From Halanaeroarchaeum sulfurireducens (GTDB lineage: Archaea; Halobacteriota; Halobacteria; Halobacteriales; Halobacteriaceae), in the NCBI RefSeq assembly GCF_001011115.1, contig NZ_CP008874.1, positions 1,564,440 through 1,628,439 of the forward strand: a stretch of DNA of 64,000 bases, given 5' to 3'. Below are positions 50,166 through 55,301 of this stretch, piece by piece. Under the pieces are notes generated by a model that searched no databases, was not told the DNA's origin, and saw nothing but the letters and a program-made list of their open reading frames with translations. Each line of letters opens with the position of its first letter. The first letter of the stretch is position 1. Made by a program: the position numbers and the translations under genes.

Positions 50166-50334
50166 CGATAAAACGTACGTAATGCAAGTATATCATTCTA
50201 TGGAATGTTATTCTTGTTCTTGTTAGGTTGGCAGGTGCGTTTCAGTATGGACGAAAAACCGATGAAGGATGTTAACCAGGACGGCAACAAGCGCAGTGTA
50301 ACCAGCACGGAATTCCATACCTGATGAGGTTCGC

Positions 50335-50639
50335 GGTAGGCGCGGTAGAAGTATTACGGCCGAGCATACGGCGACCGAGTGTTACCGAGACGCGTCGCGT
50401 CTCGGTCGCTAACCAGAACGGATTGCGTTCTGGTGATGGTCCGAAGGACCCGGAAGGTCGCCGGTTCACAGCGCGCTTTGCGCGCTGGCCCGAGCGACCC
50501 CCGAAGGGGGTCGTGACGGGCTTTTGGCCGAGCTTTTACCGAGCGCTGGCTTCGCCAGCGCGCAGCGTAAAAGGTCGTTGTGTACGCCCGGAACACTACC
50601 GGGCGAGGCTCTACTAGTAGGCTCGGTGGAAGTGAAACG
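50335..50639. repeat. Structured repeat element, copy 1 (multi-hairpin)
   Basis: Conserved blocks shared with copies 2 and 3 are GGCCGAGCAT-CGGCGACCGAG (50358 onward), CCGAGCTTTTAC/GTAAAAGGTCG, TGTACGCCCGGAACACTACCG, and CTACTAGTAGGCTCGGTGGA followed by AGTGAAACG. Between them lie perfect hairpins with 3-nt or 4-nt loops: GAGACGC-GTC-GCGTCTC, CCAGAACG-GATTG-CGTTCTGG, GGTCC-GAA-GGACC, AGCGCGC-TTT-GCGCGCT, CGACCCCC-GAA-GGGGGTCG and GCGCTGGC-TTC-GCCAGCGC. A decayed copy of the last block (50335-50357) precedes it. The remainder of the 513-bp gap (50166-50334) shows no gene. Confidence 0.8.
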
Positions 50640-50678
50640 TGCGTTTCTACGAATCGAAAGCAGAGAGCTGTGAGAACG

Positions 50679-50819
50679 TTATTCGTTTTCGAGCGCGTCG
50701 TAAATTTCGCGGTGTTCGTCTCGATCTGCCTTGGCGACGCGCAACACGAGCTCCCGACGAATGTCCTCCATCACGTCGTCGAGCGTCGTTCGTTCGCCAG
50801 TCTTCTCTTCCGTCGCCAT
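50679..50819 (-). CDS. 46-residue partner of Doc (candidate antitoxin)
   Basis: A very small, highly charged helical protein starting MATEEKTGERTTLDDVMEDI and ending REIYDALENE. It starts 26 nt after the Doc stop on the same strand. There is no DNA-binding fold such as Phd/YefM and its order (toxin first, partner second) is reversed from the classical phd-doc operon. Its size and helical Asp/Glu/Arg pattern would suit an antitoxin that inserts a helix into the Fic site; no Fic inhibitory (S/T)xxxE(G/N) motif is obvious. Confidence 0.6.
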   Translation of the reverse strand: MATEEKTGERTTLDDVMEDIRRELVLRVAKADRDEHREIYDALENE

Positions 50820-50844
50820 GTGTATCACTTGACCACGAGCCCGG

Positions 50845-51333
50845 TTAATCGTTCGGGTCCGATGACTCGTCGGACAGTTGATCGAGTCCGAACTCGACGA
50901 GGTCGCCGCGCCACTGTTCGACCACTTCGTCCAAATTAACCTCCGTCGTACGCGTTCGGAGATAGTCGAGCACGTAATCCTCATCGACTGTCTTCTCGTC
51001 CGTCCCGAGCCGTTTCAGTATCTCCCTGATCTCGTCGTCGTATTCGAATCGATACCCATTGAACAGATAGAACACAGTCGCCGCATTGAGCGCGGTGCGC
51101 TTGTTGCCGTCCACGAACGGATGGTTGGCGACGAGGAGCCGGAGCAGATGAAACGCCTTCTCGTGAATCGTCTCTGGAATCGATCCGAAGTTTCCTTCGC
51201 TGACGTACTCCAGTGTGAATTCGATATCTCCGCAATCCGGGACCCCTGAGCTAGTGTCTGGATACTCCGAGACAATGTCCTCATGGATGTCGAGGACGTC
51301 TTCGACCGACGGATACCAGAACGGGTCGGTCAT
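50845..51333 (-). CDS. doc: Fic/Doc (death-on-curing) family toxin
   Basis: A 162-residue Fic-fold protein. The catalytic motif HPFVDGNKRTA lies near residue 91 (HxFx-D-GNKR). The preceding KAFHLLRLLVAN and following ATVFYLFNGYRF helices match Doc-type proteins. Doc phosphorylates EF-Tu and stops translation, while related Fic enzymes AMPylate; the motif here has Asp-Gly-Asn, so which activity applies is not certain. It is flanked by structured repeat copies at 50.3 and 51.5-52.1 kb, and by the 46-residue partner downstream. Confidence 0.85.
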   Translation of the reverse strand: MTDPFWYPSVEDVLDIHEDIVSEYPDTSSGVPDCGDIEFTLEYVSEGNFGSIPETIHEKAFHLLRLLVANHPFVDGNKRTALNAATVFYLFNGYRFEYDDEIREILKRLGTDEKTVDEDYVLDYLRTRTTEVNLDEVVEQWRGDLVEFGLDQLSDESSDPND

Positions 51334-51484
51334 TATCGGAAGTTCACAACCGAGTACCCTATCGTTTTCTCTCTACGAATGAACGACGGTCGGGGGATTA
51401 CCGCACATCAGTTCAGCTCGTCGAACAGAACAACGGGAACACTACGGGAGAAAATCACAATGGATTCAGGACAGGTGAGATGAG

Positions 51485-51871
51485 GCAAGCATTCGGCGAC
51501 CGAGCGTTCACGAGAGCTCCGCTCTCGTGCAGCCTCTTGAAGAGTAGAGCTCTCCAATGGTCGGCGAATCTTCGATTCGCCTCGACATCAGAAATCTCCG
51601 ATTTCTGAGGACGGCTCGGAGAGCCCGGTAGGGAGCCGATTCACTCGCGCGAACGGACGTGAGCGCGAGGCCGACGAGCGACCACCGGGAGTGAGGAGTG
51701 CTTTTGTCGCCAGAAATCGGTGATTTCTGGCTGAACAGCCAGAACGCTTCGCGTTCTGGCGATGGCCGAGCTTTTGCAAGCGAGCGGAGCGAGCGCTGCA
51801 AAAGGTCGAAGTGTACGCCCGGAACACTACCGAGCGAGTTTCTACTAGTAGGCTCGGTGGAAGTGAAACGT
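51485..51871. repeat. Structured repeat element, copy 2 (longest, multi-hairpin)
   Basis: Opens with GCATTCGGCGACCGAGCG and closes with CTACTAGTAGGCTCGGTGGA plus AGTGAAACG (ends 51871). Perfect hairpins inside include CGAGAGC-TCC-GCTCTCG, GGCGAATC-TTC-GATTCGCC, CAGAAATC-TCC-GATTTCTG, CCAGAAATC-GGT-GATTTCTGG and GCCAGAACGC-TTC-GCGTTCTGGC. The core CGAGCTTTTGC ... GCAAAAGGTCG pairs across another stem. The 150 bp before it (51334-51484) contain no gene. Confidence 0.8.
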
Positions 51872-52086
51872 CTGAAGGCCGAGCATTCGGCGACCGAGCG
51901 GCTCGGAGAGCCCGGGAGGTCGCCGATTCACTCGCGCGAACGAACGTGAGCGCGAGGCCGACGAGCGACTAACGCGAGCACAGCGAGCGGCAGGAGCGAG
52001 GACGGCTTTTGGTCGAGATTTTGCCGAGCGAGCGACGCAGTCGCTCGCGCAGCGCAAAAGGTCGAAGTGTACGCCCGGAACACTAA
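51872..52086. repeat. Structured repeat element, copy 3 (tandem to copy 2)
   Basis: Begins CTGAAGGCCGAGCATTCGGC directly after copy 2 and ends GTACGCCCGGAACACTAACG, lacking the final CTACTAGTAG block. It shares with copy 2 the TCACTCGCGCGAACGAACGT-like segment and has GCGAGCGAC-GCA-GTCGCTCGC inside the TTTTGC/GCAAAAG stem. The 188 bp after it (52087-52274) hold no gene that I can support; a short GGGGCC-AA-GCCCC palindrome is seen. Confidence 0.75.
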
Positions 52087-52274
52087 CGACCGGCCTCATC
52101 CCTGGCGGCGTGCCGTGTCGGCCGGGAAACCCTCGTGCCGGGCGGGGGCCAAGCCCCAGTCTGTCGCGTACCGGGGTTCTCCGCAAGTCATCGCGTCCTG
52201 ATGGACGAGCTCGGGCGGGGACAGCGGTACGCACTGGAGAATAGCAGGGGCGTCCGTTTAGGGATGACGGCCGG

Positions 52275-52520
52275 TCAGTCCTCTGCAAGTTCGTAATCCT
52301 CGCCGGCCTCGGTCAGCGTGTAGACCTCCTCTCGACGACCACGAATCCCGCAGATCGGCTCGACGAACCCCGCCGACACGAGGTCGTCGATCGCCTCCTG
52401 GGCCTCAGGGACGGAAATATTCGCTTCGCCGGCGATCTCGCTGGGGGTGAGCGGGCCGCGGTTGTCGAGGACGACTCTCGCGAGTTTGCCCGTACAGGAC
52501 AGCACCCCCGTTTCACACAT
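52275..52520 (-). CDS. Small winged-helix regulator with N-terminal cysteines
   Basis: An 81-residue single-domain protein. MCETGVLSCTGKLARVVLDN is followed by the winged helix LTPSEIAGEANISVPEAQEA and DDLVSAGFVEPICG, then a basic wing RGRREEVYTLTEAG. Three cysteines (residues 2, 9 and about 57) could bind metal or sense redox state, but their spacing is not a known cluster. The ATG at 52520 is used; the TTG two codons upstream is unlikely. It is divergent from the 2-hydroxyacid dehydrogenase gene and might regulate it. Confidence 0.7.
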   Translation of the reverse strand: MCETGVLSCTGKLARVVLDNRGPLTPSEIAGEANISVPEAQEAIDDLVSAGFVEPICGIRGRREEVYTLTEAGEDYELAED

Positions 52521-54031: not shown

Positions 54032-55063
54032 TTACAGCCAGCCGCGGTCGGCCAGCAGTTCCCCGTTCAGCACGCTCGCTCCGGCAGCCCCCCGAATGGT
54101 GTTGTGCGAGAGCACGTTGAACTGGAAGCCATCGTCATTTTGCTGGATGCCGCCGACCGCGATGGCCATGCCATCGCCCACCATTCGATCGAGGCGGGGC
54201 TGCGGTCGATCGGGTTCGTCGAAAACCTCGATCAGTGGGTCCGGCGCGGTGGGCAGATCCTGACTCGCGGCCGCGCGGAACGCCTCGGCGATCTCCTCTG
54301 TGCTCGGGTCCGCGTCGGTCTCGACGAAGACGTTCTCGAGGTGGCCGTCGATGGTCGCGATGCGGTTACAGGACGCCGAAACGCTGGCCTCGTGCCAGTC
54401 GACGCCGCCATCCCCGACCGTGCCGAGAAGTTTCCGCGATTCGGTCTCCATCTTCTCCTCCTCGCCGCCGATGTACGGGATGGCGTTGTCGATGATCTCC
54501 ATCGAGGTCACGCCGGAGTAGCCCGCCCCGGAGACCGCCTGCAGCGTGGACACGTTGACGCGTTCGATGCCGAACTGGTCGAGAGCGGCCAGCGCAGGTA
54601 CCATGGTGATGGTCGAGCAGTTCGGGTTTTTGATCAGGGCGCCATCCCAGTCGCGTTCCTCGCGCTGGACCTCGATGAGGTCCAGATGGTCGGGATTGAC
54701 CTCGGGGATGACCAGGGGGACGTCGTCGTCGAGACGAGCGTTCGAGGAGTTCGAGGAGACGACGTAGCCAGCCTCGAGGAACGCCGGTTCCACCCGCTCG
54801 GCCACACCCGAGGGAAGCGAGGAAAAGAGGAGGTCGAGATCGTCCGGGACCGCTTCGGGCTCAGTCGCCGTGACGGTCATCGACGCGACGTCCTCGGGGA
54901 TCGGGGTGGAGACGCGCCACTTGGCCGCCGCGCGGTACGAGGAGCCGGCGCTCTCCTCGCTCGCGGTGAGAGCCACCAGTTCGAAGTCCGGATGACCGTC
55001 GAGAAGCTGTACGAATCGTTGTCCGACTGCGCCAGTGGCGCCGAGGATGCCGACACGGAACAT
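54032..55063 (-). CDS. asd: Aspartate-semialdehyde dehydrogenase
   Basis: A 343-residue Asd of the archaeal/fungal type. The NADP loop is VGILGATGAVGQRFVQLL. The catalytic Cys is in KNPNCSTITMVPALAAL, and the substrate region includes SGAGYSGVTSMEIIDN and the His/Cys segment HEASVSASCNRIA. It reduces aspartyl phosphate to aspartate semialdehyde for threonine, methionine and lysine. The ATG at 55063 is used rather than the GTG three codons upstream. Confidence 0.95.
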   Translation of the reverse strand: MFRVGILGATGAVGQRFVQLLDGHPDFELVALTASEESAGSSYRAAAKWRVSTPIPEDVASMTVTATEPEAVPDDLDLLFSSLPSGVAERVEPAFLEAGYVVSSNSSNARLDDDVPLVIPEVNPDHLDLIEVQREERDWDGALIKNPNCSTITMVPALAALDQFGIERVNVSTLQAVSGAGYSGVTSMEIIDNAIPYIGGEEEKMETESRKLLGTVGDGGVDWHEASVSASCNRIATIDGHLENVFVETDADPSTEEIAEAFRAAASQDLPTAPDPLIEVFDEPDRPQPRLDRMVGDGMAIAVGGIQQNDDGFQFNVLSHNTIRGAAGASVLNGELLADRGWL

Positions 55064-55121
55064 ACTGGCCACTGGGGGACTGAAAGAGTAAGGCCTTCGG
55101 TTGCGAGAGAGATTTGTGCCT

Positions 55122-55301
55122 TCAGTTGAGTTTGCGAGTGACGTACCCGGCGATGCGGTTCCGGACCGCCTTCGACTCGACGTTCGTGAGCTGGGTTACG
55201 CTTTCCTTGTTGTGCTCGAAGTCGTCTTCCTGGAAGGCGTCGGGGTACCGCTCCATGAGGATCGTCCCCGTCTTCTTGACGTAGTCGGGTTTGATGGCCA
55301 T
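55122..55301 (-). CDS. rps17e: Ribosomal protein S17e
   Basis: A 59-residue small-subunit ribosomal protein, [20 protein letters not shown] then [20 protein letters not shown] and ending GYVTRKLN. This is the standard archaeal S17e length. It is found only on the minus strand at these coordinates, ending 58 nt before the asd start. Conserved S17e-asd adjacency in haloarchaea suggests a shared transcript. Confidence 0.95.

Follow-up and report, generated by a model that had tools for sequence, protein, structure and literature searches.

Positions 50335-52233 of a 64,000-nucleotide stretch of DNA from Halanaeroarchaeum sulfurireducens (hereafter the window, meaning the whole stretch analysed) appear to hold a conserved box H/ACA guide RNA gene with mobile gene cassettes arrayed in small number at its 3' end, a reading to which we give a probability of about 0.7. 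By comparing this region with other haloarchaeal genomes, we document the arrays, the boundaries of their units, the mobility of those units between genera and the identity of the target RNA. The array in the window may be an old one.

The initial annotation had described one novel repeat family, present in three copies around a Doc toxin locus. Three cores in the same orientation are indeed there: the sequence TGTACGCCCGGAACACTA occurs exactly three times in the window, always on the plus strand (50581-50598, 51812-51829 and 52068-52085), and the block GGCCGAGCAT/GGCGACCGAG also has three occurrences (at 50361, 51486 and 51880). The arm that bears CTACTAGTAGGCTCGG, however, lies downstream of cores 1 and 2 only. 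Because core 3 instead precedes a different conserved block (ACGACCGGCCTCATCC..., the H/ACA RNA), the three copies are not one family; they resolve into attachment cores, a dispersed hairpin element and nested smaller elements. The Doc gene is likewise not an unrelated neighbour of the repeats but the cargo of one cassette unit. We propose that a cassette would be one unit running from just past a core, through the arm and the cargo, up to the next core, which gives the following layout:

50581..50598, plus strand: attachment core 1, an exact match
50599..50640, plus strand: cassette-side arm CCGGGCGAGGCTCTACTAGTAGGCTCGGTGGAAGTGAAACGT, kept after every internal core in other genomes
50599..51829, plus strand: cassette unit 1 (1231 bp), with a Phd-Doc toxin-antitoxin pair and hairpin element copy 2
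50679..50819, minus strand: putative antitoxin partner (MATEEKTGERTTLDDVMEDIRR...), an open reading frame in a four-member cluster with Doc units
50845..51333, minus strand: Doc toxin (Fic/DOC family; PF02661, E=2.3e-10), with homologues in 8 arrays
51428..51448, plus strand: degenerate core-like remnant GAACAACGGGAACACTACGGG
51812..51829, plus strand: internal attachment core 2, an exact match
51830..51871, plus strand: cassette-side arm CCGAGCGAGTTTCTACTAGTAGGCTCGGTGGAAGTGAAACGT, with the same conservation in other genomes
51830..52085, plus strand: cassette unit 2 (256 bp), geneless, the hairpin element alone
52068..52085, plus strand: attachment core at the RNA gene (attB/attR side), TGTACGCCCGGAACACTA, which is the 3' end of the guide RNA

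A unit homologous to cassette unit 1 is present in another genome (G001, 82% identity) and also in other genera. The putative antitoxin had no Pfam match. Upstream of copy 1 of the hairpin element, a 17-nt stretch (50279-50295) is identical, in inverted orientation, to the codons of the Doc Fic motif at 51096-51112, and is perhaps a remnant of another Doc unit.

The guide RNA gene at the insertion site

The block that follows the last core (ACGACCGGCCTCATCC...CTCGTGCCGGGCGGG, from window position 52086 onwards) matches 179 of 195 genomes of the order, and the gene that contains it was found in 154 of 157 good haloarchaeal genomes, with a single match in nearly all of them. On comparative grounds we identify this gene as a box H/ACA guide RNA, because of its stems, its kink-turn motif, its ACA boxes, pairing that favours the minus strand and the match of its pocket to 23S. 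The similar HP1/HP2 guide of H. volcanii, described below, is called sR-h45. The parts of the gene in the window are as follows:

52068..52233, minus strand: two-hairpin box H/ACA guide RNA gene, from conservation, pairing and the pocket match to 23S
52068-52070 (ACA box) and 52072-52078 with 52138-52144 (lower stem, CGCCCGG with CCGGGCG), minus strand: 3' stem-loop (A)
52162-52164 (its own ACA) to the end at 52233, minus strand: 5' stem-loop (B)

The attachment core is thus the final ~18 nt of the guide RNA and comprises the 3' pocket arm, the 3' strand of the lower stem and the ACA box. An alignment of about 40 loci revealed two conserved hairpin domains with a variable hairpin stretch between them. 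Read on the minus strand, the 3' domain consists of a lower stem, a pocket and an upper stem with a GAUGA kink-turn motif, and has an ACA directly past the lower stem. Over 72 sequences, 916 of 936 cells are standard pairs on the minus strand (502 of 504 in the lower stem and 414 of 432 in the upper stem) versus 893 on the plus strand, and at upper-stem pair 4 there are 15 sequences whose G.U on the minus strand would be A.C if read on the plus. The structural evidence is this covariation; when the conserved block was first folded, neither strand was more stable than expected, and an Rfam search of window positions 50300-52300 returned nothing at E<=5. The pocket arms of the 3' hairpin, GAGGGU and UAGU/GUUA, are complementary to 23S GUAACUAUGACCCUC (a site also given as GTAACTATGACCCTC), so that the locus has both the structural features and the pocket complementarity of a box H/ACA guide RNA. 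A structured RNA was among the readings offered in the initial annotation, and it holds for this block on the minus strand, though not for a single repeat family.

In box H/ACA RNAs the ACA lies 14-16 nt from the target U (PMC7991803). By hand count on the alignment, the distance here is 14 or 16 nt (two registers) in the native form and 15 or 17 nt with an extra base, the ACA standing immediately past the stem in the native form and one base further in the occupied form. Grosjean and colleagues predicted H/ACA hairpins of H. volcanii for 23S Psi1956 and Psi1958 (PMC2584109); as far as the available part of their paper goes, these hairpins (HP1/HP2) resemble the gene described here in forming a two-hairpin guide with ACA boxes whose 3' hairpin pairs with 23S helix 69 around Psi1956/1958, and a role as a cassette insertion site is not described in that part.

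Given its single copy number, the conserved block was also considered as a chromosomal dif site, a candidate that we rejected since the sequence belongs to an H/ACA RNA; haloarchaea have no known dif with which it could be compared (PMC7776575). Between the two H/ACA hairpins there is a run, variable in length, of further perfect hairpins with conserved linkers (NATTGCCGAGGCGG), as seen at window positions 52147-52161 and at loci L033, L035-L038, L052 and L053. Across the family the H/ACA gene is syntenic with a ~343-aa gene (an aspartate-semialdehyde dehydrogenase by sequence) and a 59-aa gene, which lie at 54032-55301 in the window.

Arrays, their cargo and the movement of units

The search for conserved blocks in haloarchaea that the initial annotation proposed was productive: the core with its right-hand sequence matched 25 of 59 haloarchaeal genomes, usually several times in each, and the hairpin element, described below, was likewise dispersed. 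Within a genome the cores share one orientation and cluster beside one site at spacings of ~0.2-8 kb. Aligned cores have two kinds of right-hand neighbour, with internal cores running into CCGGGCGA...TCTACTAGTAGGCTCGG... and the array-final core into the H/ACA RNA. Profiles of both kinds of site recovered 97 units in ~60 arrays, and core-to-core arrays in the same orientation stand next to the guide RNA gene in many haloarchaeal families; the organisms that bear them include Halorubrum, Natronomonas, Halorientalis, Halapricum, Halobacterium and Haloarcula. Among 60 attB loci picked regardless of arrays, ~12 to 14 had at least one further core inside 12 kb. Unit lengths peak at 211-360 bp, where units are geneless and hold the hairpin element alone, and at 725-911 bp, with a tail to 8.5 kb, and units without any hairpin element are the majority. 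The cargo common to several genera is dominated by toxin-antitoxin pairs, with shared clusters of DUF433/DUF5615, HTH/PemK-like, Phd-Doc, UPF0175/DUF3368 and HicA with a DUF7387 partner (HicAB-like); permeases, a P-type ATPase and regulators are also carried. Some cores with arms lie remote from any H/ACA gene (L034 at 5734 and 13109; L049 at 8132).

Complete units recur between genera at 92-97% DNA identity. Two genomes of different families (G127 and G122) share a unit that is 97.4% identical over 740 bp, and comparable pairs link Halorientalis pallida with G113 (97.4%), Halopenitus persicus with a Natronomonas (92.6%) and G017 with a Haloferacaceae archaeon (94%). By comparison, identity between families at TBP, a very conserved gene, is mostly 79-87%. 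When the units were aligned with 700-bp flanks, the alignments usually began 8 to ~16 nt before the left ACACTA and ended 9 to ~45 nt past the right one, and a few extended somewhat further on one side. Since identity between genera halts at the cores, the units are best described, from these comparisons, as mobile cassettes that move as units with their ends at the core.

Empty sites of the kind that the initial annotation suggested looking for were found: at empty loci there is no arm and the RNA ends in ...CGGGCG-ACA, whereas at array loci it ends in ...CGGGCG-U/C-ACA. The extra-base 3' end (TGTA/TGTG) occurs at 26 of 27 array loci. Of the 49 loci at which no array was detected, 19 have it and 30 have the native end. 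At the junction, whose core consensus is TGTaCGCCCG..ACACTACCGGGCGA, 9-bp inverted arms, TGT(a)CGCCCG and CGGGCGACA, surround a spacer of ~9 nt. Of the 88 internal junctions, 74 have a spacer trinucleotide identical to the one at the resident site (GGA 41, GCG 30, GCA 3) and 1 is of the opposite main type; common descent confounds this agreement. The initial annotation had also raised the idea of a recombination site, which is borne out for the 18-bp core and arm that bound the mobile cassettes.

Haloarchaea recombine readily, and it is conceivable that the units were moved by ordinary homologous recombination or gene conversion, the core being a conserved gene end that was copied along. Arm and core together offer ~45-60 bp of shared sequence at each end, and homogenisation could account for the agreement of spacers. 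But identity between distant genera usually ends within ~16-45 bp of the core, far below the usual length of homologous tracts, the insertions always have one direction and always fall at the same base, and empty sites have no arm and a different RNA end; we therefore regard homologous recombination as an unlikely source of the arrays. Single-strand transposition of the IS200/IS605 type, in which the core would be a fixed target and the hairpins the ends recognised by a transposase, seems to us improbable. Haloarchaea are rich in palindrome-bounded elements that have no transposase, such as the PATEs, as far as the accessible part of the source describes them (PMC3119063), and hairpin-rich sequence adjoins many of the cores; the nested 110-bp element and its 62-bp terminal-only forms, described below, further resemble PATEs and their core-deleted forms. 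Yet most units, those of the 725-911 bp peak, have no hairpin element, and what is targeted is an RNA gene, at its 3' end. Every junction, moreover, has the same ~18-bp core and arm, with inverted arms and a matched spacer, features that single-strand insertion after a 4-6-nt target would not need.

Proposed mechanism and comparison with known systems

For the cassette array at the guide RNA gene, we propose that a circular cassette, an intermediate that we infer, would recombine with the core at the RNA gene; in such a circle the junction of the joined core would lie exactly at TGTACGCCCGSRACACTA. The guide RNA would retain a working 3' end because the cassette would supply its last bases. 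Repeated events at this one point would lead to head-to-tail arrays, and toxin-antitoxin pairs would presumably penalise the loss of a cassette. For the enzyme, the likeliest candidate is a tyrosine recombinase that acts in trans, a class suggested because the 9-bp inverted arms flank a ~9-nt spacer that matches the resident site. No recombinase gene was found in or adjoining any array at the RNA gene, including among the open reading frames of array loci, PF00589 had no match beside arrays in 8 genomes, and no integrase was found among the cassette cargo. A gene for a ~200-aa tyrosine integrase lies ~0.6 kb from a core at L049 and L377. We considered this small integrase as the enzyme and rejected it, for it stands beside a core only in one genus (g31; L375 and L377), and array-bearing genomes, among them that of the window, lack it. 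A search of viral contigs, phages and plasmids found no free circular, plasmid or phage copy of the core with its arm; a shorter core pattern matched 35 viral contigs, probably by chance.

Integrons are the textbook route by which bacteria collect genes. The arrays described here work like an integron, in that small mobile cassettes stand in the same orientation at one preferred site with a recombination site at each cassette end, as in integrons including the archaeal ones (PMC9668308); many integron cassettes likewise carry toxin-antitoxin pairs, and integron clusters without a linked integrase (CALINs) are similar as well. They do not qualify as integrons: no IntI beside an attI was found in 8 genomes and the open reading frames of array loci, the core consensus has no attC/attI hallmark (the GTTRRRY box of attC, GTT-R-R-R-Y, is absent), the site belongs to an H/ACA RNA gene, whose 3' end it forms, and the arrays turned up only in Halobacteria. 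The survey of archaeal integrons reports none from haloarchaea, and no word in it starts with 'halo' (PMC9668308).

Integrative elements and genomic islands that occupy tRNA 3' ends (CIME-like, with an integrase in trans) resemble these arrays in that the core coincides with the 3' terminus of a stable RNA gene and restores it on insertion, and in their tandem accretion at one site, but here the units are 0.2-0.9 kb long, hold one gene pair or none, have no integrase of their own and target an H/ACA gene. Xer pdif modules are also small toxin-antitoxin modules with short recombination sites, moved by a chromosomal recombinase; the sites here differ from theirs in having 9-bp arms and a ~9-nt spacer, so that the core consensus is not a 28-bp dif-like site of the 11-6-11 form, and in all lying in one orientation.

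We consider the odds slightly in favour of a broader proposal, namely that Halobacteria own a platform for cassette capture that is not related to integrons. On this view a chromosomal recombinase, encoded apart from the arrays, would gather toxin-antitoxin cassettes where the H/ACA gene has its 3' end, and the cassettes would be exchanged across the class. The open-licence literature that we searched holds no description of haloarchaeal integrons, cassette arrays or insertion at an H/ACA gene, and an earlier description elsewhere is possible. If the proposal is true, cassette capture evolved more than once, here with another site, an RNA-modification guide as target and an unlinked enzyme, and the platform would account for how toxin-antitoxin pairs have spread among salt-loving archaea. 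The site, single-copy in nearly every haloarchaeal genome, could serve as a tool and offers a concrete substrate for asking what each of the many Xer-like recombinases of haloarchaea does.

The hairpin elements

The multi-hairpin sequence beside the cores is a separate layer, which in the window adjoins the 3' end of the guide RNA and the copies of that end in the cores. Its parts in the window are these:

50361..50577, minus strand: multi-hairpin element copy 1, interrupted by an insertion of two hairpins at ~50384-50434
51486..51808, minus strand: copy 2, with nested elements
51504..51613, plus strand: nested ~110-bp four-hairpin element inside copy 2
51880..52064, minus strand: copy 3, the least disturbed

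The perfect hairpins with mostly 3-nt loops that the initial annotation reported are well supported. The three copies contain 11 non-overlapping ones (stem of at least 7 bp), whereas 300 first-order shuffles gave 0.43 on average and never more than 3. Their density is 13 per kb in the copies and 0.6 per kb elsewhere in the window. The compensatory change in the core stem, CTTTTAC/GTAAAAG versus CTTTTGC/GCAAAAG, is also real. Covariation, which the annotation had proposed as a check, is strong in the distal domain, where 98.5% of cells are paired and 37 are compensatory, above all 500 shuffles and all slid controls.

The element, ~190 nt long and separate from the cores, is dispersed in 20 of 31 relatives at 1 to ~30 copies per genome. 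Among the 35 copies away from the cores of the RNA gene, 24 start 0-4 nt past a stop codon in the same orientation; random positions in these loci do so at a rate of 1.3%. A hairpin element also stands at the end of at least three tRNA genes (tRNA-Leu twice, and tRNA-Val). At L237 (1325-1520, 1501-1662), past the intact tRNA, a lone element is flanked by two 22-bp copies of a tRNA-Lys 3' end, which makes this locus a mini-array at a tRNA gene like the array at the H/ACA gene. Past orc1/cdc6, some species have an element of ~209 bp and others do not; in the relatives that lack it, the convergent genes are ~20 nt apart.

From this placement and structure we suggest, with less certainty, that the element is probably a structured two-sided 3'-end or terminator element that also spreads between genomes. 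That it is a mere mobile parasite (PATE- or REP-like), tolerating gene 3' ends and having no 3'-end function, is possible, at somewhat less than even odds: the element is present or absent between species at the same gene, its copies are dispersed and insertions are nested in it. A parasite alone would sit less easily with the single orientation and the 0-4-nt distance from the gene end, with the excess in a profile search of copies between convergent genes (26) over those in tandem +/+ (13), with head-to-head pairs whose distal ends are ~27 nt apart (G006:C1:56324-56505, G005:C1:2003347-2003523 and G011:C1:1691513-1691694), with T-runs conserved on both strands, or with strong, covarying pairing. 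A non-autonomous mobile element, another reading of the initial annotation, fits the multi-hairpin part, which is dispersed, covarying and placed at gene 3' ends, and not one family that takes in the cores.

The nested ~110-bp element recurs both in other families and on plasmids of haloarchaea, at 79-92% identity, and has ~62-bp terminal-only forms elsewhere; stems that are hypervariable yet paired occur in all hairpin layers. These layers, and not the cassettes, resemble the PATEs and other small mobile repeats of Haloquadratum (PMC3119063), which in the accessible part of that paper are hairpin-rich, transposase-free repeats of ~50-200 bp with nested insertions and terminal-only forms; the precise placement of a ~190-nt element at gene 3' ends in one orientation is not reported in that part. 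PATEs are non-coding and have palindromes near their termini, but neither terminal inverted repeats nor target duplications. Palindromes and small size are seen here, and the target-site duplications for which the initial annotation proposed to look are absent, except for the 22-bp tRNA-end repeat at L237.

Core genes of information processing (TBP at L285-L288, cdc48 at L262 and an S19e-like gene at L281) have the element past their stop codon in some genera only. In two sister species that are ~91% identical around the first ~110 nt past the orc1/cdc6 stop (L321 and L322), the first hairpin has been replaced by different perfect hairpins, the arms turning over while the pairing is kept.
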